Below the pieces are notes generated by a model. The model was not told the DNA's origin. It was given only the letters and a program-made list of their open reading frames with translations, and made no database searches. A DNA stretch of 59,072 nucleotides from Streptomyces sp. RPT161 (GTDB lineage Bacteria > Actinomycetota > Actinomycetes > Streptomycetales > Streptomycetaceae). The translations under genes were made by a program, and so were the position numbers. Location: NCBI RefSeq assembly GCF_027533845.1, contig NZ_JAPZVN010000032.1, positions 1 to 59,072 of the forward strand, in the 5' to 3' direction. This document shows, piece after piece, positions 9,563 to 34,323 of this stretch. How positions within the stretch are numbered: position 1 is the first letter of the stretch; each line of letters starts with the position of its first letter.

Positions 9563-9567
9563 GCCCG

Positions 9568-10368
9568 GTGGGACTGCTCGTCGAACTCCAAAAGCGCATA
9601 CCCGACGGGTGGTTCCTGCGACGGTTGCTGCCCGCCGCTTTCTTCGTCGTGATCGCGGCCGTGGGCGGCGGGCAGCTCGGCCAGCGCCACTGGGACGACC
9701 TCGGTCTCGCCCGCGAACGGATCGCCGGTGCGCTGCGGGTGAGCGGTGGCACGTCCACCCGTGCCGTCGCGTCGCTCGTGCTCTACGCGGTGGCGGTGGT
9801 GGCGGCCGCGTTCGCGGTACCGGTCGTCGCGCGGGCGATCGGTACGCTGGCGTCGGGGGCCTGGCCCTGGTGGCTGATGCCACTGGGGCGGCGACTGACC
9901 GCGTGGCGCGAACGGTGCTGGACACATCCCGAGGACATCGGGAAGGAGGCGGTCCGGGCACGAGCCGCGGGGAGGACACTCCGCGCCGATCGGCTCGACG
10001 CTCGCCGCGCCCGTACCGCGTCGACCAGGCCCAGCTCCCCCACCTGGTCGGGAGACCGGCTCCGCGCCACCGAGGCGCACGTCAAAGCGGGGACGGGACT
10101 CGACGTCGCGAGTGAGTGGCCCAAGCTGCTGCTGGTGGTGCCGGACACCTCCCGCACCGCCCTGAGCGACGCCCGCGACGCCTACGACGCGGCCTGCGAG
10201 GCCCTGGCGTGGAGCACCGCCCTCACCCTCCTCGGCACCTGCTGGTGGCCGGCGGCCCCGGCCGGGGCGCTGGTCGGGCTGCACTCCTGGCAGTCACTGC
10301 GGGAGGCGGTAGGGCGGTTGTGCAGGACCACGGAGGCGGTTTTCATGACGCAACACGGCGAGGGATGA
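9568..10368 (+). CDS. Membrane protein of the CHAT locus
   Basis: This 266-aa protein starts at GTG 9568, five bases after the preceding stop, so the two genes are co-transcribed. It has hydrophobic segments near residues 15-30 (LLPAAFFVVIAAVGGG), 65-90 (LVLYAVAVVAAAFAVPVVA) and about 220-245 (ALTLLGTCWWPAAPAGALVGL), with a basic cytoplasmic-looking middle. I recognise no named family. A membrane partner beside a CHAT protein would suit a membrane-acting effector, but that is inference. Confidence 0.7.
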   Translation: MGLLVELQKRIPDGWFLRRLLPAAFFVVIAAVGGGQLGQRHWDDLGLARERIAGALRVSGGTSTRAVASLVLYAVAVVAAAFAVPVVARAIGTLASGAWPWWLMPLGRRLTAWRERCWTHPEDIGKEAVRARAAGRTLRADRLDARRARTASTRPSSPTWSGDRLRATEAHVKAGTGLDVASEWPKLLLVVPDTSRTALSDARDAYDAACEALAWSTALTLLGTCWWPAAPAGALVGLHSWQSLREAVGRLCRTTEAVFMTQHGEG

Positions 10369-11248: not shown

Positions 11249-11723
11249 AGCGGCCCTCACCCTCACGTGACCCGCACAGCGCACCATTCCCGGCATCGCC
11301 ACGCAGGCCTGACACACCCCCAGGCCCACGTCAACTGATCACCCGGCGTCTCCCGAGGAGTTGCACCCGTGCAGCCGCAATCCCATGCCCGTGCCTGGTG
11401 TTTGATCGCGCGCCCCGCTACCTCCGGGCCCCAGTACGTCCGCCACGCAGCGCGTGGTGGACCCGAGTTGCATGGTCGAGGGGGAGGCTGGTGCTGTCGG
11501 CGGTGCACCAATCGCACACGGTGGCGACTCAGGATGCCGTGCTGGTCGCCGAGGAGGCGTGGGTGATCGTGTACGCCGCACGCCTCACAGATCTGTTACA
11601 GGCGAGAGCCGCGCGGCCGCCAGCAGGATCGCGTCACAGCACGTTGAGCACGTTACTTTCATAGGCCTTTGTGCATTTGATGCTGTTTCGTCTTACCGAC
11701 GACGGAGCTATCTCCTTGCGCGC
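11249..11723. other. Non-coding stretch before the exporter
   Basis: No convincing gene on either strand. Short open frames here lack ribosome sites, have poor codon bias and no family resemblance. It holds the junction between the truncated SWIM gene and the LAP-cluster exporter promoter, so it is a candidate integration scar. Confidence 0.45.
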
Positions 11724-11757
11724 CCTAACAGCGATAGGGTTCACTAACACCATTAGA
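11724..11757. promoter_or_regulatory. Tandem TetR-type operators before the MFS gene
   Basis: ACTAACACCATTAGA (11743-11757) is a near copy of the palindrome TCTAACACCGTTAGA found upstream of the TetR gene (16256-16270): 13 of 15 positions are identical. A weaker copy, CCTAACAGCGATAGG (11724-11738), lies 19 bases to the left. The pair sits 50 bases before the exporter start, the usual position for repression by a TetR protein. Confidence 0.7.
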
Positions 11758-11806
11758 GGTGTGGGGGCGCGCCCCTGCTCCGACACGTATGAAGGGGGAG
11801 GGTGCC

Positions 11807-13537
11807 ATGGCCCACGCCGGTACCCGGGCGGTTCCAACGCACCGGCCACACGCCAGGAGTCCCCGCACAGGGCTTGTTATCGCTCTCGTGCTGGTCGCCG
11901 CGTTCATGCAGTTGGTGGACGTCAGCATCGTCAACGTCGCTGTTGCTGCGATCCAGAGGGGATTAGGGACCACATACAGCCAGCTCCAATGGGTGCTTGC
12001 CGGGTACACGCTGGCGTTCGCCGTGCTCTTGGTCGCTGGTGGACGACTCGGTGACCGGTGTGGACGCAAGCGTATGTTCCTACTTGGCATGACCGGTTTC
12101 ACCATTGCATCTCTGCTGTGTGGTGCTGCTCAAACACCGGGCATGCTGGTCGGTTCGCGGTTAGCGCAGGGACTGACTGCCGCTTTGATGTACCCGCAGG
12201 TCTACTCCGTCATCCAGGTCACCGTGCCGCGCAAGCAACGGGGCGCCGCTCTGGGAGCGTTGGGCGGTGTTATCGGGCTGGCGGCGATTACCGGACCTCT
12301 CGTTGGCGGGCTACTCATCCAAGCCGACTTGTTTCACTGGGGGTGGCGGCCGATCTTCCTTGTCAACGTCCCCATTGGCGTCATCACCGTTCTGCTGGCG
12401 ATGCGCTACATGCCTGAGTCACGCGCCGAGGAGCCGGACCCGATCGATTGGGTCGGCGTCGCGCTGGTCTCCATCAGCATCGGCGCGCTGGTATATCCCC
12501 TTGTCCAAGGACGCGACATGGGCTGGCCGCAGTGGTTGATCGGCATGCTGGGCGCGGGGGTCTGCGGGCTGCTCATGTTCGCCGTCTACGAGCACTACAG
12601 AGAACGTGTCGGTCGCGCCCCCCTCATCCGCATGAGCCTGTTCAAGAACCGGGGTTTCACTGGCGGACTGGTGCTCATTCTCCTCTTCTATGGTGCCTTC
12701 CTCCCGTTCTTCTTGATCTTCAGCGTGTACATGCAGGCCGGCCTCGGCTACTCCGCGCTGTACACCGGTGTCGCCCTCGTCCCCTACGCTCTTGGCTCCG
12801 GCCTGGGTTCTGGGGTATCGATCGCGCTCGCGCCACGCCTTGGCCGAAACATCCTGCACATCGGGCTGGGTCTGCTCATCGCTGGCACGTGCTGGATCAT
12901 GTGGACTGTGCGGCAGCATGGAACAGACCTTCGCACCCTGCAACTGCTGCCGTCGTTGCTTGTCGCCGGCCTCGGGTTCGGGCTGACGGTCACCCCGCTG
13001 GTGACACTTATCCTCGCGAAGGTGCCTGCCTACCACGCAGGGTCAGCTTCGGGGACGCTCACCACGGTCCAGCAGTTCGGCAGTGCCGTCGGTATCGCCG
13101 TCCTTGGCACCCTCTTTTTCGGGATGCTTGGTTGGCACTCCAACACTGTCACTGCACACCAGGCACCCGCCATCTCCCGACAACTGTCGACGGCAGGGCT
13201 TTCTGCCTCTGATGCCGCAATCAGCGTCCGGGAATATGGGAAGTGTTTCCGCGACCGGGCCAGTGAAAAAGACACCTCCGTGACACCGGCCAGTTGCCGA
13301 TTGGCGGAAGCGGACACTCGAAAATTTGGTCACGCGGAAGGAGCCAGCCACGTTCTCGCCACATCCGCGCAACAGGCAAATCGAGTCAATTTCGCGTGGT
13401 CGGTACAGCACACATTAATTCTGCAAATCGCCTTGTTCGCCACTTGCTTCCTGATCGCGTTTGCGCTACCAAACGTGCGAGGCAAGGAACTGGCGGAGTT
13501 TGAGCAGCAAAGCCAAGACGCAGTCATTATTGGCTGA
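11807..13537 (+). CDS. DHA2-type MFS drug/peptide exporter
   Basis: This 576-aa protein is a 14-helix major facilitator of the EmrB/QacA group. Visible hallmarks are LVDVSIVNVAVAAIQRGLG in helix 1, GGRLGDRCGRKRMFLLG in loop 2-3, GGVIGLAAITGPLVGGLL in helix 5 and WRPIFLVNVPIG. A hydrophilic stretch of about 90 residues before the last helix (about 470-550) contains two Cys. ATG 11807 has GGGGGAG six bases upstream; the longer frame from 11759 is rejected. Operators shared with the TetR gene at 16217 imply TetR control. It probably exports, and gives resistance to, the peptide made by the LAP cluster. Confidence 0.88.
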   Translation: MAHAGTRAVPTHRPHARSPRTGLVIALVLVAAFMQLVDVSIVNVAVAAIQRGLGTTYSQLQWVLAGYTLAFAVLLVAGGRLGDRCGRKRMFLLGMTGFTIASLLCGAAQTPGMLVGSRLAQGLTAALMYPQVYSVIQVTVPRKQRGAALGALGGVIGLAAITGPLVGGLLIQADLFHWGWRPIFLVNVPIGVITVLLAMRYMPESRAEEPDPIDWVGVALVSISIGALVYPLVQGRDMGWPQWLIGMLGAGVCGLLMFAVYEHYRERVGRAPLIRMSLFKNRGFTGGLVLILLFYGAFLPFFLIFSVYMQAGLGYSALYTGVALVPYALGSGLGSGVSIALAPRLGRNILHIGLGLLIAGTCWIMWTVRQHGTDLRTLQLLPSLLVAGLGFGLTVTPLVTLILAKVPAYHAGSASGTLTTVQQFGSAVGIAVLGTLFFGMLGWHSNTVTAHQAPAISRQLSTAGLSASDAAISVREYGKCFRDRASEKDTSVTPASCRLAEADTRKFGHAEGASHVLATSAQQANRVNFAWSVQHTLILQIALFATCFLIAFALPNVRGKELAEFEQQSQDAVIIG

Positions 13538-13565
13538 TCGGAATTCGCGAAAATGGCTCCATCAT

Positions 13566-14069
13566 CTAGATGGGGCCATTTCGCATTTCCTCGCCATTCT
13601 GCATCTCCGGGCGTCCAGCCTCCGACGCTAGGCCACGGCGTTCCGCGAGCTCCAGTCGATAAACAACCTCCAACAGGTCCATGACCTGCTGGCGCCGAGC
13701 TTGCGATAACTGGGCGGCGCGCATCGCAATCAGCTGTACCTGGCCATCCCCCATGATCCTGTCGAAACGACTTATCTCCGCTTCCAGTAACGCCAGCTTC
13801 TTGGTGACCCGATCGGCTGTTTGGTCGTCGAAGAAGTAGGCAACTGGAACGCTAAAGAAGTCAGCAAGAGCCTGCAGGTGACTGAGGGTGGGATTCGTCT
13901 TCTTGCTCTTCCGCAGCTGCCAAATGTAGCTCTGCGAGATCATGACCCCTGTGTTGCGGATGGCCGCCGCGACGTGCTCGTTGCTGTACTCGCGCCCTGC
14001 GGGTGACTTGGTTGCCGCGAAGAGATAATTGAGTTTGTCGGCCAAGGTCTGGCCTGCCAGTTCCATCAT
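13566..14069 (-). CDS. XRE-family regulator of the LAP region
   Basis: This 167-aa protein has a helix-turn-helix region at about residues 25-65 (EHVAAAIRNTGVMISQSYIWQLRKSKK), then LADFFSVPVAYFFDDQ, and a helical C-terminal half. It has the same build as the regulator at 3802-4323 (both have the V-P-x-A-Y-F-x-D-D signature), though overall similarity is modest. GGAGG lies about nine bases before ATG 14069; the upstream in-frame extension to 14174 is unlikely. It is convergent with the MFS gene and likely a cluster-situated regulator. Confidence 0.8.
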   Translation of the reverse strand: MMELAGQTLADKLNYLFAATKSPAGREYSNEHVAAAIRNTGVMISQSYIWQLRKSKKTNPTLSHLQALADFFSVPVAYFFDDQTADRVTKKLALLEAEISRFDRIMGDGQVQLIAMRAAQLSQARRQQVMDLLEVVYRLELAERRGLASEAGRPEMQNGEEMRNGPI

Positions 14070-14174
14070 GCGCAGCCCCTCCGCCCGAGCAACTATTAGT
14101 TCCCCGTGTAAGCAATATACCATGCGCAACCGATTAGTCCCCCCGTCTTTTCTGCCCGTTAGAACCTTGCGCAT

Positions 14175-14721
14175 CGATATTGCTTAGCCGGCATTGCCCT
14201 GGCACCCATGTCAAAGGAGCCCCATGGTGAGCTAGCGGGCAGTAAGTTGGGGTCTTGATCATCTGCAAGAGCAAAACTAGCCATTTGTTGAGACGTGGGC
14301 ACCCACTGTAACTATGTTGAGTGAATTTCACTCGTGTGATTAACTGGATGTCGAGGGTTCCACCGAGGTGAACAGCCAGAGGGACGTACCTTGTTCGCCA
14401 GTGGACACCGCGAGTAGTCCGCGAGCCGCCGGGGGAGCTACGGATGCAAGGGCCACGAGACCGCAGAGAATCGTTTCTGCTTGCCGTCGCCATGCCTCCT
14501 CATCGTAAGTTGGGACACACCCGACTGCCTGTCCATGCTTCCCCGCGTTAAGTGGCCGAGACTCCCGCGTCCAAGGGTGCGCACTCGGCCAACAGGGCGC
14601 CGGATGTAGATATTTCAGTGGTGGCGACGGGGCTGACCGTCGAATTTACACCCACAAGAAGGCACAGGTGTGTATCCCGGACCTGCAACGGTTAAGGCAT
14701 ACACGGCTCCAAGGGGGGTTG
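14175..14721. promoter_or_regulatory. Regulatory gap with a perfect palindrome
   Basis: This gap of about 550 bases separates the divergent XRE (minus) and MmyB-type (plus) regulators and has no convincing gene. GAGTGAA-T-TTCACTC at 14319-14333 is a perfect 7-bp-arm palindrome typical of a repressor site. The DNA here is less GC-rich than the surrounding genes. Which regulator binds is not known. Confidence 0.4.
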
Positions 14722-15495
14722 ATGATCACGGCAACCATGCCGAGGCACCGAGAACTCCAGACATTCCTGCAGCGATGTCGCGACCGTGTTGGTATCTCGC
14801 AAAAGACCATGGCGGAACGATTACACTTATCGCCCCGCGGATATTGGAACCTTGAACAAGGGCGTATCCGCAACCCCAGCACTGAGATCCTGGACGAGCT
14901 CGCTGTCATCCTAAAATTGGGTGCGCGTGAACGCTGGACGCTCTACATGCTCGCCGTGCGCCATGATCCGCCACCGCTGCGTAGCGCCCCGCTGGAGGAT
15001 GCATCCGCGTTCGCGGAGCTGTTGGCGGTACAACGATGCCCAGCCGTCGTCGTGGATCCCGCCTGGCAGATCGTCGCTTCCAACGGGGCCTACCGCAAGC
15101 TCCCTTTAGCGGATGTCGGCCAAGACAGCTTCATGCGCCAGGTGCTGCTCACTCCACAGGTCCGCGACACGCTTCTCGGCGACTGGGACGATGCATGGGC
15201 AGCGCCTCTGCTCGGTGAGTTGCGCACCGCGTCCGAGGTGCATCCTGACGCGGACTGGCCCAAGTACCTGCTGCGTGCCATCACCCGTGACGAGCGGCTA
15301 CGGCGGGTGTGGCGGCGCATGGATGCCCACCCCCTGGCGGATGCTGTCATCACGCGCCCGTTCTGCCATCCGGCGTGGGGGCCGCGCGTGACCGTGGTGG
15401 AGACCGTTCCCCGGTACCTGACCGGGCACAAGATCATCTCGCTGGTTCCCTTGGAGCCGCAGCAGGCTACTCCACCGACGGTCGATCACCCGTAA
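14722..15495 (+). CDS. MmyB-like XRE transcriptional regulator
   Basis: This 257-aa protein has an N-terminal XRE domain (LQTFLQRCRDRVGISQKTMAERLHLS; then RGYWNLEQGRIRNPSTEILDELA) and a C-terminal MmyB-type ligand-binding domain, marked by CPAVVVDPAWQIVASNGAYR, LLGDWDDAW, and the repeated Arg-rich helix ITRDERLRRVWRRMDAHP. Such regulators in actinomycetes often sit in natural-product clusters and are thought to bind a small ligand. ATG 14722 follows GGGGGG; the in-frame upstream start at 14668 is rejected. Confidence 0.83.
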   Translation: MITATMPRHRELQTFLQRCRDRVGISQKTMAERLHLSPRGYWNLEQGRIRNPSTEILDELAVILKLGARERWTLYMLAVRHDPPPLRSAPLEDASAFAELLAVQRCPAVVVDPAWQIVASNGAYRKLPLADVGQDSFMRQVLLTPQVRDTLLGDWDDAWAAPLLGELRTASEVHPDADWPKYLLRAITRDERLRRVWRRMDAHPLADAVITRPFCHPAWGPRVTVVETVPRYLTGHKIISLVPLEPQQATPPTVDHP

Positions 15496-15497
15496 GG

Positions 15498-16217
15498 CTA
15501 CGACCGGGTCTGGGCCGTGATGCCGTCGAGTAGGCAGGCTAGACCGAACGCGAACCGTTCGTCGTTTCCGGCCCTGGTGAGTTGGTCGGCGAGTGCCACG
15601 GTGTGAGGGAATGTCTCCCGCGACAACGCCTGGAGGCCCTCACGGACTTCCTTGAGGTAGTCGCGGGGGGCCTCACCCCTGGCGACGGGACCGGACATCG
15701 GCGTGGTCTCCCACAGCACGAACCCGTGGATGTACACCAGGCACATGATCAGTGCGTCAGCACTTTCGCGGTCCGCTAGGCCGGCGTTCCGGAGCCACCC
15801 CAGTAGCCGTTCGAGGTGGTTCAGCATGTGGGGGCCGAGCACGAACCGGTTGGCGAGGATCTGTGCCGCATCTCGCTTGGACAGCAGGTAGCGACGGAAG
15901 GCGTGCCCGAACGTACTCAGGCCATCCCTCCAATCCCCAGTGACGGGCAGTTGATCGAAGGGGAAGTCAGCGAACAGGGCCTCGGCCAGCAAGTCGATCA
16001 GGTCATGCTTGTCCTTGACATGCCAATACAGGGTCGGGGCCTGGATGCCCAGCCGCTCGGCGAGTTTCCGCATGCTCAGCCGGTCCAGCCCGTCGGCTTC
16101 AACAAGCTCGAATGCCGCGGAGACGATGCGGTCGACGGTCACCGGATCCCGTTCGAGGCGTGGCTCGGTGCGGCGCCTGATCACTGCTCGTCTGCGGGCA
16201 CCCGCGTCCGCCACCAC
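15498..16217 (-). CDS. TetR-family repressor of the LAP exporter
   Basis: This 239-aa protein has a TetR DNA-binding domain (RIVSAAFELVEADGLDRLSMRKLAERLG, then APTLYWHVKDKHDLIDLLAEA) and a TetR_C-like ligand domain (YIHGFVLWE). GTG 16217 is preceded by AGGAGG; GTG 16214 is equally possible. A perfect palindrome lies 39 bases upstream (16256-16270), so it is probably autoregulated. The same motif at the MFS promoter indicates that it controls the exporter, likely releasing DNA when the peptide product binds. Confidence 0.87.
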   Translation of the reverse strand: MVADAGARRRAVIRRRTEPRLERDPVTVDRIVSAAFELVEADGLDRLSMRKLAERLGIQAPTLYWHVKDKHDLIDLLAEALFADFPFDQLPVTGDWRDGLSTFGHAFRRYLLSKRDAAQILANRFVLGPHMLNHLERLLGWLRNAGLADRESADALIMCLVYIHGFVLWETTPMSGPVARGEAPRDYLKEVREGLQALSRETFPHTVALADQLTRAGNDERFAFGLACLLDGITAQTRS

Positions 16218-16255
16218 TCGTCCTCCTCATCCACGCAAACTGCGGCCACCCGCCA

Positions 16256-16270
16256 TCTAACACCGTTAGA
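16256..16270. promoter_or_regulatory. TetR operator (autoregulation)
   Basis: TCTAAC-ACC-GTTAGA is a palindrome with 6-bp arms and a 3-bp centre, between the TetR start (16217) and the LLM stop (16305). It matches the general TAAC-n3-GTTA pattern of TetR operators and recurs at the MFS promoter. Confidence 0.72.
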
Positions 16271-16304
16271 CGAGCGGGTGGCTAGTTGTCTCGCCTGGCA
16301 GTAC

Positions 16305-17369
16305 TCAGCCGACCTTCGGCATGACCTCCTGCGCGAAGAGCCGCACGTTCCGTTCCATCGACGCCGCCTCCTGCCCTCCGTAGTCAATCTGCCACAGCAT
16401 CATGTCCAGATACAGCTGCTCGCGCAGCCACTCGATCTTCTCCAGCACAGTTTCGGGGCTGCCCACCACGCCAGTCGCGTTGCTGCGTAGATCTTCCTCG
16501 GACGCGCCCACAAACGTCTTCCCGGGGGTCGAGTAGCCGGGATAGGCGGTCGATTTCACTCCGGTCCACGAGTTCGCAGCTTCACCCCACACCTGGAGGT
16601 ATTCCCGTAAGTACGGCGCCGCCACACGGTAGGCCTCTTCGTCCGACTCCGCGACGTACAGCGGCACGCTCAGTCCAACCCGCGGCTTAAGGCCCGCACT
16701 CCCGTGTTGGTCCTCGAACGTCTCCCGGTACACCTCGACCATCTCGCGCATGCGCGGCAGTTCATCCTCCTTCGGCGGGGAGGCGATCAGCAAGGAGAAG
16801 CCCTTCTCCCCGATCCACGCGAAGCTCTCCCGTGAGCGGACCGCGGCGACCCACACTGGCGGATGGGGCGCCTGAGTGACTGGAGGCAGCGAGGTGGCAT
16901 CGGTGTAGCGGAAGAACGGCGTATCTTCCGATGCCTTCTCCTCAGCCCACAACCGTCGGACGGCCTCGATGGTCGCGGTGAACTTGGCGCGGCTGTCGTC
17001 CAAGTCGATGCCAAACACGTCGAACTCGTAAGGCAACCAGGCTCGTGCGAAGCCGACTTCAAGGCGGCCACCGCTGATCGCGTCCAACTGGGCTGTATCA
17101 GCGGCGAGTTGTACGGGGTGGTGGAATGATGCCTGGATCCCTCCCGTCATTAGGCGGATCTGGCTGGTCTGAGCGGCCACGGCCGAGAGGAAGGCCAGCG
17201 GGCTGGGGCAGTAGCCGCCGTAATCACGCAGGTAGTGCTCGGTCATCTTCACATAATCGAAGCCGAGTTGGTCTGCCAACCGCGATACACGCAGGGCATC
17301 GGCGAAGTAGTCTCTCGCTGACCTGTGGTGAGGTCGGCAGTCTGGAAGTAGCGATATCCCGTGCTTCAC
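16305..17369 (-). CDS. Luciferase-like (LLM) flavin-dependent monooxygenase
   Basis: This 354-aa protein has the bacterial luciferase fold signature: SRLADQLGFDYVKMTEHY near residue 35, LMTGGIQASFHHPVQLA, LDAISGGRLEVGFARAW and HPPVWVAAVRSRESFAW. It would use FMNH2 or F420H2 and O2. GTG 17369 has AGGAGG six bases upstream and overlaps the stop of the preceding CPBP-like gene (GTGA); the longer frame is rejected. It is the last enzyme of the precursor-led minus operon, so it likely oxidises the LAP peptide, for example by N-hydroxylation or oxime formation; the reaction is inference. Confidence 0.82.
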   Translation of the reverse strand: MKHGISLLPDCRPHHRSARDYFADALRVSRLADQLGFDYVKMTEHYLRDYGGYCPSPLAFLSAVAAQTSQIRLMTGGIQASFHHPVQLAADTAQLDAISGGRLEVGFARAWLPYEFDVFGIDLDDSRAKFTATIEAVRRLWAEEKASEDTPFFRYTDATSLPPVTQAPHPPVWVAAVRSRESFAWIGEKGFSLLIASPPKEDELPRMREMVEVYRETFEDQHGSAGLKPRVGLSVPLYVAESDEEAYRVAAPYLREYLQVWGEAANSWTGVKSTAYPGYSTPGKTFVGASEEDLRSNATGVVGSPETVLEKIEWLREQLYLDMMLWQIDYGGQEAASMERNVRLFAQEVMPKVG

Positions 17370-17878
17370 GAAGGTCCTCCTGAAAGTGATTGGTTGGGCG
17401 GTTGCAGGGAAGTGAGGGAGACGAAAGCGGCATTGGCCACGGCGAGTGGAAGGACGGTGTGCGTCTTGCTGTACAGCAGGGCGTGCACGCATCCGGTCAC
17501 CGTCCCGACGACGGCAGCGAGACATCTCGCCTCCGTTCCACGTGCGGGTACCGTCATGACCAGCAGCGACACCATCACCGACACAGCCACCGCCAGCTCT
17601 GTCCGGCCTCCGGTAACCGCGATGGCGCCAGCCCGCAACATGAGCTCCTGGACGAGACCGATGAGGACGAACGCGGCGACGGTCGCCATGGTCGGGAGCC
17701 TGCGGGCAAGAGCGCGGTAGGGGCGGACCGCGTCGCTACCGACGATGGCCATCCAGTTGTCCTCGCCAATCGGCTCGTACCGCACCGCGCTGGCCACGAT
17801 GGTGGACAGCAGGCCGCATATGGCGAACTCGCCCGTTCCGAGAAGCACACCCAGTGCCAGTAACGCCGCCGCGGTCAT
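17366..17878 (-). CDS. CPBP-like membrane protein with degenerate active site
   Basis: This 170-aa protein has four to five hydrophobic segments. The motif VQELMLRAGAIAV sits where CPBP/CAAX-type proteases have EExxxR; the first Glu is Gln and later His motifs are not evident. It directly follows, and overlaps by ATGA, a normal CPBP gene. ATG 17878 has AAGGAGG. It may be a non-catalytic partner of the true CPBP protease, an immunity protein or an unrelated membrane protein. Similar CPBP proteins (SagE, PznE) occur in other LAP clusters. Confidence 0.6.
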   Translation of the reverse strand: MTAAALLALGVLLGTGEFAICGLLSTIVASAVRYEPIGEDNWMAIVGSDAVRPYRALARRLPTMATVAAFVLIGLVQELMLRAGAIAVTGGRTELAVAVSVMVSLLVMTVPARGTEARCLAAVVGTVTGCVHALLYSKTHTVLPLAVANAAFVSLTSLQPPNQSLSGGPS

Positions 17879-18645
17879 CGTGGCCTCCTTCCTGCCGTCT
17901 TACTGCCGAAGGCGGTCTGGTAGTGCACAAACACGCGGACGTTGAACCAGGTATGGCCGATGACGGCGGCCAGCACGCTGCCGGTGGCCAAGGTGGCGGC
18001 GAGGGTGAACACTGATAGCGGCAATTTCGCTATGGCCTGGCCCCACCCGAACGGCAAGTGCGATAGGGCAAACGTCACCGACACGGCCGCTAACGCCATT
18101 GCCCCCAGGGGCCACGGCACTATCCGGAGGGCGATGTGGCCGAGTGCGCCGCGATACACCATCTCTTCAAGCACCGCCCCAACCACCAGCCACCAAAGGC
18201 CAACGCGTGTTTCTCGGGCCTGCTCGGTTCGGCTCCAGCGGTTCGAGGGCACCGCCTCTCGCACCTCGCGGGAGTCTTTTCCGTCTGCAGCGATGCCCAC
18301 TGGTCGCCCAGGGCCGCTGGCGCGGTGGGCGCGGGGCCGGCCCGCCGCCCCCCAGCGCCCGGCTAGGCGTGCTGTGATCCTTCGGTCGGTGTGCCACGCA
18401 AGGCGGCCGATCAGATAGCCGAGCGGAACCGAGGCGACCAAGCCGGGCCACCACCCATCGGTAAGCATGCCCGGTCCCTCCAGCCGCAGCCCCAGAACCA
18501 CTAACCCCGACATGATCACGAAGTAGGGTGCGAGGGCCGGGACCTGCGGGGCTTTGGGTTCTATCCACCGGCCGTGCAGGTGGGAGGCGAGCGCCATCGG
18601 CGCCAGCCCCCACAACACCAGCACGGCGACCAGATAGGCGTGCAT
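17875..18645 (-). CDS. CPBP (CAAX-type) intramembrane protease, probable leader peptidase
   Basis: This 256-aa protein has about seven membrane segments and the CPBP motifs: EEMVYRG at about residue 160, SHLPFGWG and the last-helix motif GHTWFNV. These glutamic-type intramembrane proteases include SagE of streptolysin S and PznE of plantazolicin, which are proposed to remove the leader or give immunity. The gene begins two bases after the YcaO stop and overlaps the next start. It is the best candidate for cleaving the precursor leader. Confidence 0.78.
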   Translation of the reverse strand: MHAYLVAVLVLWGLAPMALASHLHGRWIEPKAPQVPALAPYFVIMSGLVVLGLRLEGPGMLTDGWWPGLVASVPLGYLIGRLAWHTDRRITARLAGRWGAAGRPRAHRASGPGRPVGIAADGKDSREVREAVPSNRWSRTEQARETRVGLWWLVVGAVLEEMVYRGALGHIALRIVPWPLGAMALAAVSVTFALSHLPFGWGQAIAKLPLSVFTLAATLATGSVLAAVIGHTWFNVRVFVHYQTAFGSKTAGRRPR

Positions 18646-18647
18646 GA

Positions 18648-20003
18648 TCAGGGGTACGGATGCGGCAGGGGATTGACGAACCCGCCGTAGTCAGCGAACC
18701 GCGGGTGCGCAGCCGGCGGGGCACTCGGCAGCGGCAGACTTAGGGTGTCCGGAGACCACACGCGCATCACTGTGAATCCCAGCTGGCGGATATCGGCGGT
18801 TGTCAGATCCGCCCAAAACAGGTGCTTCCCCGTGGAGCGGAATGCGTCCACCACTGATCGCACGATCTCGCGGGGCTGGCGCGTATCGTCTGCGGGCAGG
18901 TCGCTCGCCGGTTTGCGAACATGCTGGGCGAACCGCCTCTCCACCAGCTGCGCGCCGTCCCGGCTGGCGTAGTAGCCGACGTTGGACTCCAAGTCGAACA
19001 TGCCCGCCAGCTGGTCCTCGACCGGCCCAGCGGCCGGATCCGTGGCGTGTTCGAGCAGGCTCCACCCCGCGAGAGCGTGGACACCGACCGTCTCCAGCAA
19101 CGCCCGGTACATCGCCCGCTCCAAGCTCGCCCCCGATCCCAGCCCGCAACTGAGGGCCGGAACAGCGTTGTTCGGCGAACGCAGGAGGCAAGCCACGGTG
19201 AAGCCGGGGAGATCCGGGTTCGGAAGGTAATGGAATTCCGGCGCGACAGTGCTGGCGTAGTGCCGGTCCAAGAACCCCTTGAGAGCGGCCAGCCGCTCGT
19301 CCGCCTCAATCAGCACGCTTTCGGTGTTGCCGTACCAGTGGCCCATGGCGGTGTCGAGTTGGATCAGCTCATACAGTCCCCCGCGTAGCGCAGCGTCAGG
19401 AACGGTGTGGGCCGCTGTGCCCGTCGTCACCGCCGAGACCAGCCAGGGCTCAGTGTCAGCAGGCACGTATCCGAGGAGGAACTGCTGTGCCGGGACCAAG
19501 GATTCGGTGTGGTCGAGGAGGGAGGGCACTCGGACCCAGCCCATCGCGGCGTTGGGGTCGAACGGCTGGTAAGGAAAGTTCTCCCGGTTGAGCTGGGCGC
19601 TATCGAAGAGATTGAGGGCGGCGGAGTCGATGACCGGCTCTCCGCAGTCAACCAGTTCCGCGTGGCTGGCCATCACGACGGGTAGGCGGCCCTCTCGCAC
19701 CACAGAGTGCCCCGCGTAGCGTTCCAGCGTCTCGCCGAGGACCCGGATACGGGATTCGAACGGCAGGAAGCCAAAGCCGCCGATGTGGTAGAAGCCGGCC
19801 TTGGGCGCCGGGCGGTTCTGCCACAGGTGGACCCCCGTGAGATCAGCGCCTTCGACGAACATGCGCGGGGAGCGCAGCGGCTTGTTCAACCCTCCGATGG
19901 AGGTGATCAGCCCGCACAACCTGCCCTGCATCTGGCTCTGCAGCGATGCGGCGCGTTCGTCCTCATCCCGCCAGACCCTCAGCGCCAGTTGCGTGTCACT
20001 CAC
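18648..20003 (-). CDS. YcaO cyclodehydratase (azoline formation)
   Basis: This 451-aa protein is a YcaO enzyme, which uses ATP to activate backbone amides so that Cys, Ser and Thr cyclise to thiazolines and oxazolines. Family features are RIRVLGETLERYAGHS at about residue 90, GLGSGASLERAMYRALLETV at about residue 300, and a proline-rich C terminus PLPHPYP typical of azoline-forming members. GTG 20003 overlaps the end of the E1-like gene by eight bases; the in-frame extension to 20072 lies inside that gene and is rejected. It works with the E1-like protein encoded just upstream. Confidence 0.9.
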   Translation of the reverse strand: MSDTQLALRVWRDEDERAASLQSQMQGRLCGLITSIGGLNKPLRSPRMFVEGADLTGVHLWQNRPAPKAGFYHIGGFGFLPFESRIRVLGETLERYAGHSVVREGRLPVVMASHAELVDCGEPVIDSAALNLFDSAQLNRENFPYQPFDPNAAMGWVRVPSLLDHTESLVPAQQFLLGYVPADTEPWLVSAVTTGTAAHTVPDAALRGGLYELIQLDTAMGHWYGNTESVLIEADERLAALKGFLDRHYASTVAPEFHYLPNPDLPGFTVACLLRSPNNAVPALSCGLGSGASLERAMYRALLETVGVHALAGWSLLEHATDPAAGPVEDQLAGMFDLESNVGYYASRDGAQLVERRFAQHVRKPASDLPADDTRQPREIVRSVVDAFRSTGKHLFWADLTTADIRQLGFTVMRVWSPDTLSLPLPSAPPAAHPRFADYGGFVNPLPHPYP

Positions 20004-21033
20004 TGGCCCACACCCTCGCGTCGAAGTACAAGCTCGCGTCGTCCCGGCCCCGCACCGATCCGCAGGCAGCACACCCTGGCAACCGCAGCACGTCCTGGTA
20101 GGCGATTTCCATGGTGGGCAGGTAAATGCCCAGGACCTTGCCGATGGTGAACGTCGACCCTGTGCTCAGGTAGTTGACCGCCTCCAGGGCGGCGTGCCCC
20201 GCGAGGATCTGTCGGACGGCCGCGAGCATGGGTGGCTTGCCATGCTTTACGGCGCTGGCGGCGAGGGCCTGTTTGTAGGCCACGTAGCTGGCGGATTCAC
20301 GCAGGTTCATCACCACCCGCGTCTCGAAGCACTCGTAGCACGGTGAGCTGCCGGGAACGATAGTGGGGCCTACGAGCAGGAACGGCCCGTCGAGGGCCAC
20401 ATGCGTCCACGGGATGTCCAGCTCGATCGCTATTCGGTTGAACGCGCGGGACCGGATCGGGTTGACGACCCCTTGCGACCACAGCATGTAGGCGCCGCGC
20501 AGTTCGGCGAACGACTCGGCGAGGTGCGCCAGCCTCAGCCCGTCATGTGTGGCGGTCTCATCCAAGGTCGCTATGCGCTCGGCCAGCCGGTTACCGGCAC
20601 AAAGCCGCTCGACCTTGGTTGTGTTCGCGTCCTGGACGAGGTCGGCAATGGCTCCCGCGAGCGGCTCGTCGCCCATCACCACGCACCGCTCGGATCGGCT
20701 GGTGGCTGCACCGTCTTCTACGCGAAGCGCCGACATCTGGTCCAGGTAGGAGTCCAGCGCACTACCAGGACTCCATTCGACAGCGTCCAGCGTCCGTAGG
20801 TGATCCACAACGGCTTCCACCGTGGCGCGGGACACCCCGTGCGCCTTGGCGAGTTCCTTGTGACTTTGGGCGCCGTCCAGGCCACGGATCAGGTCGAACA
20901 GCTTGCCCTTGCCCGACTCATCAGTGACCGTGTACGAGCGAGGGTTCCACACTCCCGTGCGCAACTCGACGACATCGGGACTGTGCCCGACCACCGTGAA
21001 GGAACGCTTCACACGGGCTTCTGTTCCTGCCAT
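19996..21033 (-). CDS. E1-like leader-binding protein of the azoline synthetase
   Basis: This 345-aa protein has an N-terminal winged-helix RiPP recognition element (SFTVVGHSPDVVELRTG through VSRATVEAVVDHLRTLDAVEW, residues 11-90) and a ThiF/E1-like C-terminal domain with two zinc pairs, CYECFETR and CAACG. These are the marks of the C-protein (TOMM leader-peptide-binding protein) that delivers the precursor to YcaO. It lies between SagB and YcaO, overlapping the latter. No ATP-binding activity is needed in this class. Confidence 0.87.
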   Translation of the reverse strand: MAGTEARVKRSFTVVGHSPDVVELRTGVWNPRSYTVTDESGKGKLFDLIRGLDGAQSHKELAKAHGVSRATVEAVVDHLRTLDAVEWSPGSALDSYLDQMSALRVEDGAATSRSERCVVMGDEPLAGAIADLVQDANTTKVERLCAGNRLAERIATLDETATHDGLRLAHLAESFAELRGAYMLWSQGVVNPIRSRAFNRIAIELDIPWTHVALDGPFLLVGPTIVPGSSPCYECFETRVVMNLRESASYVAYKQALAASAVKHGKPPMLAAVRQILAGHAALEAVNYLSTGSTFTIGKVLGIYLPTMEIAYQDVLRLPGCAACGSVRGRDDASLYFDARVWASE

Positions 21034-21072: not shown

Positions 21073-21990
21073 TCAACGACGAGCGCCGAGCAGCACCATG
21101 TGCACGACCGCCCGGTACACCCCGTCGATGCCAAGCGCCCGATGAGTCTCGTCATCGAAAAAGCCCGAGTAGTCCAGGCTGCCCAAGCCAAGCGCGGTCG
21201 CTGTCAGGTGGATGTTCTGCGCGATCGAGCCGGTCTCATGCAGCACGAAACGCAGTCCCCGCGGTCCGTACTTGCGCATCGAGCGCCATGGGGAAGCAAC
21301 GAACAGCAGCAGGGCCCCGCATGTTCCGGCCAGATCGTCTCCGGCAACGTCCGCGCACGAGGACAACAGCCTGGTCAGCTCTTGCTCCCCTGCCCATGTC
21401 TCCAACGCGTCGGCATCCGGCAGGTACCGGTAGATGCCGCGCTCCAGCTCCGTGATGTTGCGGGCGACGACCCACACTTCGACTGGGAACAGACCCCCTG
21501 CACTTGGCGCGGTGCGCAGCCGAAGCGCCGCCTCACCGCCGGACTCCAACCGGGACTGAACCTCGATTGTCTCCGAATCGCCGTACCTGAGCACGCTCGC
21601 CAACGATCCGAAGGGCAGCGGGGCGGAGGCGAAATCACGGGCACTGCGACGGCCTGCGAGCACCTGGGCCAAGGAGACATCAGACAGCCTGGATTCGGGC
21701 AGCTGGATTCTTTTGGCTCCATCAAGCGGACTGCGCGTTGCCTGGGCCAAGGCGATGGTGACCGGGTCGGTGAAATAGTGGGCGACCGACAGCTGGGTTT
21801 CCCGGTCGTGCCGTGTGTTGCGGCTAGCGACCAGGAACTCCTCAGCGACGCGCGGCAGAGCATCGGACGCGTTGTGGTTGTCAAACCTGAGCGGGTGAGT
21901 GCGCAGCCCCACGCCCAGGGCCTGCGGGCTGACTTCGCGGGCCTCCGTGGTGACCAGCGCATCCCGCACATCGGTCGGGCTATAGGTCAA
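21073..21990 (-). CDS. SagB-type FMN-dependent azoline dehydrogenase
   Basis: This 305-aa protein belongs to the SagB/ThcOx nitroreductase-fold group that oxidises azolines to aromatic azoles. Visible features are GRRSARDFASAPLPFGSLASVL, RTAPSAGGLFPVEVWVV, RGIYRYLPDAD, KYGPRGLRFVLHETGSIAQNI and YSGFFDDETHRALGIDG. The start is uncertain: TTG 21990 keeps the longest frame, GTG 21969 is an alternative. It follows the precursor after 102 bases containing a strong hairpin. Its presence predicts fully aromatic oxazoles and thiazoles in the product. Confidence 0.88.
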   Translation of the reverse strand: MTYSPTDVRDALVTTEAREVSPQALGVGLRTHPLRFDNHNASDALPRVAEEFLVASRNTRHDRETQLSVAHYFTDPVTIALAQATRSPLDGAKRIQLPESRLSDVSLAQVLAGRRSARDFASAPLPFGSLASVLRYGDSETIEVQSRLESGGEAALRLRTAPSAGGLFPVEVWVVARNITELERGIYRYLPDADALETWAGEQELTRLLSSCADVAGDDLAGTCGALLLFVASPWRSMRKYGPRGLRFVLHETGSIAQNIHLTATALGLGSLDYSGFFDDETHRALGIDGVYRAVVHMVLLGARR

Positions 21991-22039: not shown

Positions 22040-22071
22040 GCCGGGCAGGCAACAGGTGCTGCCTGCCCGGC
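22040..22071 (-). terminator. Hairpin between precursor and enzymes (attenuator)
   Basis: GCCGGGCAGGCA (22040-22051) and TGCCTGCCCGGC (22060-22071) form a perfect 12-bp stem with an 8-base loop. It lies 21 bases past the precursor stop and 49 bases before the SagB start. A partial terminator here would give much more precursor than enzyme mRNA, a common RiPP arrangement. Confidence 0.7.
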
Positions 22072-22092: not shown

Positions 22093-22221
22093 TCAGCGGG
22101 TGACCGCCGCCGAGCAGCACGACGTGCCCGGGATCACGATCGCCTCGTCACGCTCATCGCTGAGGGTGACCTGCGCCGTGGTGTTGCGGTGCTCAACCGT
22201 GGCCTCAGAACGCAGCTTCAT
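22093..22221 (-). CDS. LAP precursor peptide (42 aa)
   Basis: ATG 22221 is preceded by a near-ideal AAGGAGGT six bases upstream and opens 42 codons to TGA. The peptide begins MKLRSEATVEHRNTTAQ, continues with an acidic stretch (SDERDEAIVIPG) and ends TSCCSAAVTR. The C-terminal T-S-C-C-S run can give up to five adjacent azoles, as in the polyazole tracts of plantazolicin or azolemycin; a further Thr41 is also present. It is the first gene of the operon containing SagB, E1-like, YcaO and CPBP genes. The cleavage site is not known; after IPG (residue 32) is one guess. Too short for standard ORF cut-offs. Confidence 0.85.
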   Translation of the reverse strand: MKLRSEATVEHRNTTAQVTLSDERDEAIVIPGTSCCSAAVTR

Positions 22222-22455
22222 GGGGTTACACCTCCTTATCTTGGGTAGAAACGACATGCCTCGACAGGCGGGCGACTACCGCGTGAGGAAGAGGTCGCAC
22301 TCGACTCCTCACGTGGTGGTACGGCCCAGGCGCTCCAGATCTTCTGGAGACCACCCACGGCGAGCGTCCCCCCAGCCCCGGTACGGCCTCAAGAGATCAG
22401 AACAACTTGTGCGACTCCTGAGGCGCCTGAGGAAGCACGTGATAGACGAACGGGC
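22222..22455. promoter_or_regulatory. Divergent promoter of the LAP cluster with inverted repeats
   Basis: This 234-base gap lies between the precursor (minus) and the P450 (plus). Two inverted repeats are visible: CGTGAGGA (22282-22289) with TCCTCACG (22306-22313), and CTCCAG (22333-22338) with CTGGAG (22344-22349). They may bind the XRE or MmyB-type regulators. The TetR motif is not present here, so exporter and biosynthesis seem to be controlled separately. Confidence 0.5.
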
Positions 22456-23702: not shown

Positions 23703-24746
23703 ATGAACGACACCGGCCCAGAGGTCTTCCCCGAGTGGATGCCACCGCACCTACGCCTCATGCAACTCGTGGCCGCCAAATGGATCACTCAACCACTGAT
23801 CGCATTAACCCGGCTCAACATAGCCGACCTACTCATAAGCGGTCCTCGCACCGTCGAAGACCTCGCTGATGCCTGCGGAGTCAAGTCCGGCCCCCTGCAC
23901 CGCTGCCTGCGCGCCACCGCTGCCGTAGGCGTGTTCGCCGAGCTGGGCGACGGCCGCTACTCGTTGACGCCCATGGGCCGTCACCTCACTTCGGGCACCG
24001 AGCTCTCACTGCGCGACTTCACTCTCTTCCTGGCCGACGAGTCCACCACACAGTCGTTTGACCGCATCCTGGACGTGCTCCGTACCGGTCGGCCAAGCTT
24101 CGAAGACGCCAACGGCAAGGCCCTGTTCCAGTACCTGGATGATGAACCTGAACTACGCGCCGTCTACCAAGGCGCGTGGGCCCCACTCACAGCCGGTGTC
24201 GCCAAAGCCCTGATGAACACCTTCGACTTCACTGACACCAAGGTCGTTGCCGACCTCGGTGGGGGAACCGGCACACTGCTACGTACCATCCTGGACACAC
24301 ATCCACATATCACGGGCATCCTGATGGACCGGCCGGAAGTTGTCCGCCAGGCGCACCCCGACCTCACCACCGGCTCTCTAGCGAATCGCGTGGAGTTGGC
24401 TGCTGGTTCCCTCCCTTCAGACGTACCGCCCGACGCGGACATCTACATCATCAAGAACGCCCTGCACTGCCTGGACGCTGAAACCGTCACCGCAACTCTC
24501 CGAGCTGTGCGCGCAACGATCGGCGACCGCCGCGACGCACGGTTACTCCTCATCGAATCGGTGATCACGCCAGGCAACGGGTACGACTGGGGACGCTTCG
24601 TCGACATCGAAGTGATGATCAACTGTGGTGGCCGTATCCACACTCGCGACGAATGGGACTCCCTTCTCGCCTCGTGCGACTTCACTCTCACCGAGGCCAG
24701 CGAACTCCTGCCGCCTCAGTGGCTATTGAGCGCCCGTCCCAGCTGA
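23703..24746 (+). CDS. SAM-dependent O-methyltransferase
   Basis: This 347-aa protein resembles small-molecule O-methyltransferases of antibiotic pathways: an N-terminal winged-helix dimerisation part (LIALTRLNIADLLISGPRTVEDLADACGV), then the SAM motif VVADLGGGTGTLL at about residue 180, and ALHCLDAETVTATLRAV with the later HTRDEWDSLLASCDFTL. It follows the P450 by 29 bases and probably methylates a hydroxyl introduced by it, or a peptide terminus. Start at ATG 23703 after a purine-rich AGAGAAGAG. Confidence 0.87.
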   Translation: MNDTGPEVFPEWMPPHLRLMQLVAAKWITQPLIALTRLNIADLLISGPRTVEDLADACGVKSGPLHRCLRATAAVGVFAELGDGRYSLTPMGRHLTSGTELSLRDFTLFLADESTTQSFDRILDVLRTGRPSFEDANGKALFQYLDDEPELRAVYQGAWAPLTAGVAKALMNTFDFTDTKVVADLGGGTGTLLRTILDTHPHITGILMDRPEVVRQAHPDLTTGSLANRVELAAGSLPSDVPPDADIYIIKNALHCLDAETVTATLRAVRATIGDRRDARLLLIESVITPGNGYDWGRFVDIEVMINCGGRIHTRDEWDSLLASCDFTLTEASELLPPQWLLSARPS

Positions 24747-31757: not shown

Positions 31758-32936
31758 GTGACGGTGCAGGACCGCGTATACACCTCGGTCGAGATCTGCG
31801 CCGGCGCGGGAGGGCAGGCGGTCGGGCTCGACGCAGCAGGCTTCCGGCACCTGGCTCTGATTGAGATCGACCCGGATGCGTGCCAGACCCTCCGGGACAA
31901 CATCGGGAAGCTGGGTGGACGCGAAGGGGACGTACACCAGCGGGACCTCAAGCTGTTCACCAGGAAGCGTAAGGGCAAGCGGCCCGAGCAGTTCACTATC
32001 GCCGACCTCGGCTTGAAGCGGGGGGAAGTGGACCTCCTGGCTGGTGGCGTTCCCTGTCCGCCTTTCTCTGTGGCCGGGCAGCAGCTCGGGCAGGACGACG
32101 AGCGTGATCTGTTCCCTGTGATGCTTGAAATGGTCGACGCTCTCGACCCCAAGGCTGTGATGATCGAGAACGTCCGCGGCCTTCTGGAGCCCAAGCACAA
32201 GTTCGCCGCCTACAGGGCGAAAATCGAGGCCAAGCTATCGCGAATGGGATACACCAAGCGTGATTGGAAGGTCCTGGAAGCCAAGAATTTCGGGGTCCCT
32301 CAGCTGCGCCCTAGGGCCATCCTCGTGGCTGTGAAAGGGCGGTACGCTCCCTATTTCGACGAACTTCCTGAAAGTAATGGGGCTGCCTTTCCCACGGTGG
32401 CCGACGCGCTCCGGGATTCAATGAAGGAACGCTACGACGCTCTTCGTGGGACCGAGTTTGCAGAGAGAGCCGCAGAATGCTACGAGCGGTGGTTGGAGTA
32501 CGAGGGAGCTCGCAAGGCTGCCGCTCCCACGCTGGTTGGCGGCTCTAAGAAGCACGGCGGTGCGGATCTCGGCCCGACCAGGGCCAAGCGAGCGTGGAAA
32601 GACTTGGGAGTCAACGCTCTCGGCGTGGCCGACGAGGACCCCATGGTGAAACCCGGCCGACACCTCTTGAGTGAAGACGGCCCGATGCTTACCGTGCCGC
32701 AGGCTGCGATAATCCAGGGATTCCCCGAGGATTGGAAATTCTCCGGGCGTAAGACGGCCGCCTACCGGCAGGTCGGGAACGCCTTCCCGCCCCCCGTGGC
32801 CGAAGCAGTCGGTAAGATGATCATCGATGTTCTTAAGCAGGCCGACAAGGGCGCTGCACCCCCGGCCCCGCGCTGTGAAAGCGATGAGCCCGTCTCAGCC
32901 CCGGTGTACGAGCAGCCCGCACTCCTTGCGCTTTGA
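31758..32936 (+). CDS. dcm: DNA (cytosine-5) methyltransferase of a NaeI-like system
   Basis: This 392-aa protein is a C5-cytosine methyltransferase that transfers methyl from SAM to DNA. Motif I is EICAGAGGQAVGL (residue 12 on), motif IV GGVPCPPFSVAG with catalytic Cys100, motif VI MIENVRG, motif VIII QLRPRAI and motif X GNAFPPPVAEAVG. GTG 31758 has GAGGAGGGG six bases upstream. It converges with, and overlaps by 42 bases, the Vsr gene. Together with the NaeI-type endonuclease it should protect the host. If the pair follows NaeI, the site is GCCGGC; that is inference. Confidence 0.92.
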   Translation: MTVQDRVYTSVEICAGAGGQAVGLDAAGFRHLALIEIDPDACQTLRDNIGKLGGREGDVHQRDLKLFTRKRKGKRPEQFTIADLGLKRGEVDLLAGGVPCPPFSVAGQQLGQDDERDLFPVMLEMVDALDPKAVMIENVRGLLEPKHKFAAYRAKIEAKLSRMGYTKRDWKVLEAKNFGVPQLRPRAILVAVKGRYAPYFDELPESNGAAFPTVADALRDSMKERYDALRGTEFAERAAECYERWLEYEGARKAAAPTLVGGSKKHGGADLGPTRAKRAWKDLGVNALGVADEDPMVKPGRHLLSEDGPMLTVPQAAIIQGFPEDWKFSGRKTAAYRQVGNAFPPPVAEAVGKMIIDVLKQADKGAAPPAPRCESDEPVSAPVYEQPALLAL

Positions 32937-33365
32937 GACCGCGTCCTTGACCGCTTCAGCACATTCCTCTGCTGGCTGGTGCTCCCAGAAGCGCAGCACC
33001 AGCCAGCCTGCCTCGGCAAGTCGAATATCGGTGTCCTTGTCGCGCTGCATGTTCCGGCCGATCTTCTGGCGCCAGTAGTCCGGATTCGTCTTGGGAGGCA
33101 CGAAGTGCTGCGGGCATCCGTGCCAGAAGCACCCGTCCACGAACACGGCAACACGCACTCGGCGGAAGACGAGATCTGCGGTGCGGCGCATACCGGGCAG
33201 AGGCTTCGCAGCGACCCGGTAGCGGAGGCCCGACGCGTGGACGAGCGAACGCAGGGCAAGCTCCGGGGATGTGTCGCGGTTGCGATTGCCGAGCATACTG
33301 CGGCGGTTGGCGGCTGAGGAGGCCCAAGAGCCGACGGGTGGTTCCCAGTCAGAAGAGTGCACCAT
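32895..33365 (-). CDS. vsr: Vsr-type very short patch repair endonuclease
   Basis: This 156-aa protein nicks at T-G mismatches that arise when 5-methylcytosine deaminates, so it accompanies C5 methyltransferases. Family blocks are GNRNRDTSPELALRSLVHASGLRYRV, TADLVFRRVRVAVFVDGCFWHGCP and DYWRQKIGRNMQRDKD, then WLVLRFWEH. The Cys/His pair in CFWHGCP fits the zinc site. ATG 33365 follows GGGAGG. It overlaps the NaeI-type gene by 17 bases (same operon) and the methyltransferase gene tail to tail. Confidence 0.9.
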   Translation of the reverse strand: MVHSSDWEPPVGSWASSAANRRSMLGNRNRDTSPELALRSLVHASGLRYRVAAKPLPGMRRTADLVFRRVRVAVFVDGCFWHGCPQHFVPPKTNPDYWRQKIGRNMQRDKDTDIRLAEAGWLVLRFWEHQPAEECAEAVKDAVSKRKECGLLVHRG

Positions 33366-34323
33366 CGCTAGCCTCCCGTGTTCCACTCCACTGTTCCCCT
33401 CCCGCCTGGCCTGGGCGGGCCTCCGGGATGGCGGGGCGCGCGCCTCGGTCTGCGGCAGGAAGGGCGACCCAGTCGCCAGGCCCGAGATCGTATCCATGCG
33501 CAGCTGCTGTTACGCGCTGGTCCTGCCACTTCCCGCAGAGCAGGAGCAGCCCCTGGGCCTCCGCCCTCTCGCGGATGGCGCGGGCCCTTCGTATCGGGTC
33601 CTGCCGGCCGGCGCATACGGTCAGTATTACGCTGCGAGGGATGACGATTCCCGGAAGGTAGCCGAACAGCATCAGGAGGCGCGCCTCCTGGCCCCGATCC
33701 TCGGCGAGCACGGCGTTGGCTTGCTCCTCTGTGAGGAGCGAGAGCGGATTCACGGGGAGCGGCGTCCACTCGTAGAGCGGGACTGCCCATTGCTCACGGG
33801 CGTCGGCAGCAATCCCTCGTTTGCCGTCGTTGTTACTCCCGCGGTAGAGCCACGAGGTATGGGTGCGGACCAGCCAACTGCGGTGGCGGTTCTTCTTCAG
33901 CTGGATCTGAGTGCAGATACAGAGGTGGCAGTGCGCCTCCGCAGGGATTGCCCAATTGTCCCCGACAGTGGCCTTCAGGTCCACGGGGGTATCGTTGATC
34001 AAGATGTCGAGCGGCTTGGCCTTCTTCCAACCGAATACCCTCTGGACTTCGTACTCGAGCTTGGCTCCCACCGAGGCTCGCTCGCCCGGGTGGACCTTCG
34101 GCGACAGGAGGTTGAAGCGCGAGGTTCGGGCCCCGTCCAGGACGTAGTCCACCGATGATCTGATCGCCTCCGTGAAGCCGTCGGCCAGGCATGGAGTGGC
34201 GATCGCGCGCAGGACGCCTTGGAGGTCCTCGTCGTCGGTCGGAGCCTGCAAGATTCGGCCCGGCGACTTGCACGCAGGGTTCTCACAGACGGTGCCAAGT
34301 GGCTGTAGTACGAGTCTGCCCAC
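33349..34323 (-). CDS. NaeI-type type II restriction endonuclease
   Basis: This 324-aa protein matches R.NaeI in length (about 317) and in catalytic spacing. R.NaeI uses Glu70, Asp86, Asp95 and Lys97; here Glu90, Asp106, Asp115 and Lys117 (KLEYEVQ, LDILIND, VDLKAT) keep exactly the same spacing. GDNWAIPAEAHCHLCICTQI is another NaeI-family block. NaeI binds two copies of GCCGGC and has a topoisomerase-like C-terminal domain. The start GTG 34323 is the longest choice. It pairs with the methyltransferase at 31758 and the Vsr gene. Confidence 0.85.
   Translation of the reverse strand: MGRLVLQPLGTVCENPACKSPGRILQAPTDDEDLQGVLRAIATPCLADGFTEAIRSSVDYVLDGARTSRFNLLSPKVHPGERASVGAKLEYEVQRVFGWKKAKPLDILINDTPVDLKATVGDNWAIPAEAHCHLCICTQIQLKKNRHRSWLVRTHTSWLYRGSNNDGKRGIAADAREQWAVPLYEWTPLPVNPLSLLTEEQANAVLAEDRGQEARLLMLFGYLPGIVIPRSVILTVCAGRQDPIRRARAIRERAEAQGLLLLCGKWQDQRVTAAAHGYDLGPGDWVALPAADRGARPAIPEARPGQAGGEQWSGTREASDGALF

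Follow-up and report, generated by a model that had tools for sequence, protein, structure and literature searches.

The precursor gene

The window, the whole 59,072-nucleotide stretch of Streptomyces sp. RPT161 DNA analysed here, carries on its minus strand a short open reading frame (ORF) at 22093–22221. It encodes 42 amino acids plus a stop, and its translation in the window ORF listing is MKLRSEATVEHRNTTAQVTLSDERDEAIVIPGTSCCSAAVTR. The leader extends up to a Pro-Gly pair (PG, residue 32) and is followed by the core TSCCSAAVTR, in which T-S-C-C-S forms five adjacent heterocyclisable residues. An earlier note on this DNA had pointed to this contiguous core, and the frame does stand out: among the 376 window ORFs of 30–80 amino acids, no other has a Cys/Ser/Thr run of five residues or more together with two or more Cys among the final 12 residues. 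The ideal ribosome site that the note had described is also present, as AAGGAGGTG (22229–22237, minus strand), which ends 7 nt upstream of the ATG and occurs once on the two strands of the 59 kb window. An alternative in-frame ATG at 22257 would give a 54-residue precursor, but the 42-residue start is preferred since both the AAGGAGGTG site and the aligned homologues support it.

The operon and its surroundings

The precursor heads a minus-strand operon, continuing with genes for a SagB dehydrogenase, an E1-like protein, a YcaO protein, two CPBP membrane proteins and a luciferase-like monooxygenase (LLM); a cytochrome P450/O-methyltransferase pair is transcribed divergently from it. The earlier note had placed the SagB, E1-like and YcaO genes in one operon with the precursor, and matches to TIGR03605, TIGR03882 and PF02624 on the same strand support this. 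It was silent on the two CPBP genes, the LLM, the P450/methyltransferase pair, an MFS gene and the regulators described below.

The SagB-type FMN dehydrogenase (21073–21990, minus strand) scores 117.4 bits against TIGR03605 (cut-off 78.4), and is above the cut-off of PF00881. The E1-like (C-type) cyclodehydratase partner (19996–21033, minus strand) scores 59.1 against TIGR03882 (cut-off 36.9), for residues 208–331 only, and the E1 profile recovers TruD, LynD, MusD and MccB; by its family name, this protein is a candidate leader binder. The YcaO cyclodehydratase (18648–20003, minus strand) ends in PHPYP and scores 144.1 against PF02624 (cut-off 25.7). Its start is placed at GTG 20003 because homologues suggest a GTG there, in which case it overlaps the E1 gene by 8 nt. 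Both proteins fall short of the curated cut-offs of two NCBIfam models, with the E1-like protein at 81.6 against the 187.65 cut-off for SagC (TIGR03603), and the YcaO at 190.5 against 219.25 for SagD (TIGR03604).

Downstream lies CPBP1 (17875–18645, minus strand), a CPBP/Rce1-like membrane protein (PF02517) and candidate leader protease, with the motifs EExxxR, FxxxH and HxxxN. The second CPBP-like membrane protein, CPBP2 (17366–17878, minus strand), scores under the PF02517 cut-off and has degenerate motifs (QELMLR). The LLM follows (16305–17369, minus strand; PF00296), its GTG start at 17369 being placed from homologues; its nearest solved chain, 7bip, is labelled merely 'luciferase-like monooxygenase' and implies no substrate. 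From the coordinates, CPBP1/CPBP2 and CPBP2/LLM each overlap by 4 nt. On the other side of the precursor are the P450 (22456–23673, plus strand; PF00067) and the O-methyltransferase (Methyltransf_2; 23703–24746, plus strand; PF00891), with homologues in 8 and 7, respectively, of the 15 loci described in the next section, the window included.

Beyond the LLM, several genes recur in a subset of these loci, designated here by L numbers. A TetR-type regulator (15498–16217, minus strand; PF00440, PF02909) is also found in L013–L016 and L029, and an MmyB-like HTH regulator (14668–15495, plus strand; PF17765, PF13560) has 56–60% counterparts in L013–L016. A second HTH protein (13566–14174, minus strand; weak PF01381 match) is retained at 66–68% in L013–L015 and 34–39% in L016. 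An open frame for an MFS transporter (11738–13534, plus strand; PF07690), a candidate exporter, is retained at 60–68% in L014, L015, L016 and L029, the L015 copy being partial, as it ends at the edge of that stretch. A Pfam scan of 13 window proteins found this MFS protein and no ABC transporter, and the genes scanned in the window yielded no recognisable cyclising enzyme and no further dedicated protease.

Elsewhere in the window, reading the ORF list by eye identified a DNA cytosine methyltransferase-like ORF (31758–32936, plus strand), a Vsr-like ORF (32895–33497, minus strand) and an ORF that could be a restriction gene (33349–34323, minus strand), so that 31758–34323 is likely a restriction-modification locus. 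The high G+C content of the sequence, a genome size of 7.7 Mb and the genes present suggest an actinomycete.

Related loci are few and widely scattered

A search of 394 genomes from the window's family with the window E1 as query (E 1e-10) gave matches in nine, namely the window's own, five close ones (46–68% identity) and three distant ones (28–32%). In the window's genus, E1 was found in one of three genomes, its own; in the genus of genome G052, in 3 of 70 at E 1e-30. An E1 profile used at E 1e-20 matched 1 of 396 genomes across the phylum (the window's only), 7 of 392 in the genus of G085 (five strong matches, G085 among them, and two weak ones) and one of two in the genus of G009. A YcaO scan of genome contigs yielded one relative, the locus L012 of a Gammaproteobacteria MAG, and 5 of the 36 genomes of that MAG's order have the E1.

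This gave 14 related loci whose E1 is close to that of the window, nine from the window's family (L013–L017, L029–L032) and five from the MAG's order (L012, L052–L055). The distant loci L018 and L019 served for comparison only, and L010, L026 and L027, also distant, lie outside the 14-locus set. The precursors of L013–L015 are nearly alike, and these are therefore not three independent cases.

Counting the window, SagB, E1 and YcaO are present in all 15 loci, and the E1 and YcaO genes are adjacent in every one. Every YcaO of the 14 related loci matches that of the window at E 4.4e-77 or better (1-Gb scale), while for L018, L019 and a second cassette in L032 the values are 2.7e-15 to 1.4e-9. 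The window YcaO has a Gln in ELxQxD where TruD, LynD and MusD carry ELVERD or EIVERD. This was considered as a sign of altered chemistry and dropped, since L018 and L019 also have the Gln in their SagB/E1/YcaO cassettes.

The accessory genes are more variable. The LLM is found in 11 of the 15 loci, the window among them, and in L013–L016 it is the most conserved protein, at 80–82% against 66–72% for the three core enzymes. The loci lacking it are L052–L055, and as none of these four genomes (whose completeness is not stated) has an LLM match at E 1e-10, the LLM is not universal and was dropped as a universal core enzyme. Within the stretches examined, the P450 is missing from 7 of the 15 loci and the methyltransferase from 8. 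A MATE-type gene is present in L012 and L052.

Some of these loci have features of their own. In L017, two additional genes lie inside the operon, one of the glyoxalase/VOC fold and one for a radical SAM protein (7004–10016). In L032, a second, distant YcaO/E1/SagB-like cassette (13339–17694; YcaO E 1.4e-9) directly adjoins the family cluster. L012 and L052–L055 belong to the order of genome G1084, where the cluster-bearing genomes measure 1.1–3.5 Mb and four of the five have no LLM. L018 and L019 come from two genomes of the window's family, and upstream of their distant SagB/E1/YcaO cassettes are near-identical short ORFs (8350–8553 and 8655–8807, respectively, both plus strand) ending in VAPGASTTCGGGNCCCSSCCSW; their PG-plus-Cys-run layout resembles that of streptolysin-type precursors.

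Conserved and variable features of the precursor

Directly before sagB, all 14 related loci have a similar short ORF; in L017, the VOC-fold gene sits between the two. The precursors of L017, L030 and L032 were located by motif or by reading beside the enzymes, rather than by blind similarity. In all 15 precursors, PG follows hydrophobic residues, and a [DE]xR motif is present in the leader of 13, the exceptions being L012 (Lys for Arg) and L055 (Cys for Arg). After PG, the longest Cys/Ser/Thr run is of 4–7 residues in 14 precursors and of 2 in L030. The sequence ends in a tail of the form [GA]A[VI]xR, exact in 8 of 15 and looser in 7: the C-termini are AAVTR (window), AAVASKR, AAIVRES (two), AAIVR, AAIARR, GAVVRPRG, GAVVRRRG, AAAVRAR, GAVVRPTA, GMVPVKA, GATTRQ, GAVTK, GTVSQ and GAVTQ. 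Core variants include TSCCS, TCCCS, CCCT, CCCCS, CSSCC and the Cys-less AGST, and the core of L052–L055 is longer, following the pattern GCSxGCCC[ST]SCG. The leader, which the earlier note had called acidic, is weakly so in the window (net -2, residues up to PG); across the 15 precursors its charge ranges from -2 to +3, and acidity was dropped as a family feature.

The L030 precursor (8139–8255) has the Cys-less core AGSTAAAVRAR, and L030 is the only one of the 15 loci with no CPBP match at E 1e-5; its YcaO and LLM genes are about 40 nt apart (11685–11725). From the missing core Cys and CPBP gene it follows that either the rings are not essential or the product is different, or that the locus is decaying.

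A profile built from 11 precursors was run on 297 family genomes, with only 23 first-look candidates scored in each. At E 0.01 it matched 13 genomes, six strongly (2.2e-14 or better) and seven weakly (0.003 or worse). The six are exactly the genomes of this 297-genome draw with a close E1. They are among the profile's own sources, and the informative part is therefore the absence of strong orphan precursors. The seven weak matches lie inside frames of 146–1134 amino acids. A plasmid search with a proteobacterial-type precursor gave no match.

Over the first 40 codons, the synonymous/non-synonymous differences are 6/5 (window and L016), 5/10 (window and L013), 7/12 (L016 and L013), 3/0 (L013 and L014) and 0/1 (L013 and L015); as proof of coding this pattern was dropped, the counts being too small, and weak alone.

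Two intergenic elements were also compared. Between the precursor and sagB is a strong stem-loop (22040–22071, minus strand; 14-bp stem, z -5.5), a putative attenuator or partial terminator. A stem is found at this position in 12 of 15 loci, with a sequence that differs between loci: 11 with z of -1.0 to -5.5 (just -1.0 in L017), plus L052. The L012 hairpin runs into TTTTT. No stem is found in L053–L055, and the hairpin was dropped as a universal feature. The precursor/P450 interval contains TTCGTCTATCA (22440–22450, minus strand), a possible regulatory site. It is found in the window and L013–L016 only, being absent from L017 and L029–L032, and was not retained as a family-wide operator.

A proposed pathway

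Proteins of the E1 and YcaO families have an established role in azoline formation, and SagB proteins in the oxidation of azolines. I consider it likely, with good confidence, that the ORF encodes the precursor of a linear azol(in)e-containing peptide (LAP/TOMM) matured by an E1/YcaO/SagB/CPBP1/MFS pathway. The E1-like protein would bind the conserved [DE]xR region of the leader and present the core to the YcaO, which would cyclodehydrate T-S-C-C-S to azolines, some or all of which SagB would oxidise to azoles. CPBP1 probably cleaves near the invariant PG, and the MFS protein would export the product. In the window's branch, the LLM would add oxygen, and in most members the P450 and O-methyltransferase would add oxygen and methyl; such tailoring by the three enzymes is probable for this branch. 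The stem-loop after the precursor stop may allow more precursor than enzyme to be made. The cluster probably makes a small ring-bearing natural product. Up to five adjacent azoles are predicted from T-S-C-C-S, and the new polyazole peptide suggested in the earlier note is likewise a prediction.

The identity of the precursor, the central claim of that note, is supported by the similar precursor that adjoins SagB/E1/YcaO in 14 of 14 related loci, distant bacteria included, and by the enzyme family matches. The same explanation is weakened by the E1 and YcaO scores under the SagC and SagD cut-offs, by the Cys-less core of L030, and by the loci lacking the LLM (4 of 15, in their whole genomes) or, within the stretches examined, the P450 (7 of 15) or the methyltransferase (8 of 15).

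More tentatively, and with less than even confidence, these loci could represent a distinct LAP family across distant bacteria, combining a short azole run with a conserved [GA]A[VI]xR-type tail that stays in the mature peptide and contributes to activity. In this reading the LLM would carry out an oxidation not yet described for azole peptides, with the P450 and O-methyl tailoring coming after it.

Alternative readings

An unlikely alternative is that the product is a membrane-active, streptolysin-type peptide, from a shortened relative of the cytolysin clusters and acting in the same way, the CPBP proteins being a SagE-like protease or conferring immunity. The window cluster does share with the cytolysin group, as described in the main text of PMC4603692, separate B, C and D proteins, a CAAX-like protease and a Gly before the ring segment (here PG before a Cys-rich run), and distant E1 matches on plasmids include genes annotated SagC. 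However, that text gives cytolysins ABC transporters and a Gly with at least 10 contiguous heterocyclisable residues after it, whereas the run is of five residues in the window and at most seven among the 15 loci, and the 13 window proteins scanned include an MFS protein and no ABC transporter. The YcaO also appears distant, with plasmid matches of 1e-17 or weaker among those listed (15 of 30 records), Borrelia included, and the LLM, P450 and methyltransferase are additional in the window cluster.

YM-216391-type polyazole peptides are cyclic, with contiguous azoles, as predicted here, and a P450 in the cluster. On this analogy, the AAVTR tail would be a removed follower and the azole segment would be macrocyclised, in keeping with the conservation of a tail without rings, the nearby P450 and methyltransferase, and the hydrophobic residues kept ahead of PG. 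This is quite unlikely, as the scan of window genes revealed neither a cyclising enzyme nor another dedicated protease. Conservation of the ring-free tail suggests that it either acts within the mature peptide or serves as a follower, and the former is favoured because the same scan revealed no second intact protease candidate.

That the ORF is a chance frame, with the true precursor elsewhere, is most improbable: short precursors are easily over-called, and weak profile matches do occur in 7 of 297 genomes, but the precursor recurs in distant bacteria with its gene-order position unchanged and is linked to the enzyme set, its ribosome site is unique in the window, and it is the sole such frame of 376.

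Significance and comparison with known systems

Judged from its sequence, the ORF is a genuine precursor of LAP type. The conserved cluster family to which it belongs should interest RiPP specialists, though the kind of molecule is already known. The family is bounded and sparsely distributed, with natural core variants and with members that have or lack the LLM, P450 and methyltransferase. These variants make two questions testable by comparison: the role of the LLM in an azole-peptide pathway, and what has preserved the ring-free tail over such large distances among bacteria. In searches of the open PMC literature, no paper returned had a title or opening lines on this precursor or gene set (RiPP databases and most subscription journals lay outside the search), and searching with peptide strings returned unrelated papers only.

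As in LAP/TOMM clusters, an E1-like C protein and a YcaO D protein are encoded together, with a Cys/Ser/Thr-rich core near the D protein, L030 (AGST) being the family exception. The main text of Cox et al. (2015; PMC4603692) takes D proteins within a BLAST E of 1e-54 as an isofunctional group; by this sequence threshold, the 15 loci are one YcaO group. It is best read as a group of its own, near the streptolysin-type families and apparently outside them. The words 'luciferase' and 'monooxygenase' are absent from that main text.

Two further systems described in the same text are close to the window cluster. Plantazolicin, compared by description, shares a precursor of about 45 amino acids and an uninterrupted block of five heterocyclisable residues, but has a second such block, and its N-terminal Arg is dimethylated by its own methyltransferase (PMC4603692). 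The propionisin TOMM clusters differ in their ABC transporters and in the two or three precursors of most strains, and the LLM, P450 and methyltransferase of the window cluster go unmentioned for them in that text. They share a separate cyclodehydratase, more than one CAAX-like protein, and a contiguous Cys/Ser/Thr segment followed by a tail free of these residues (PMC4603692); in layout, they are the nearest known system.
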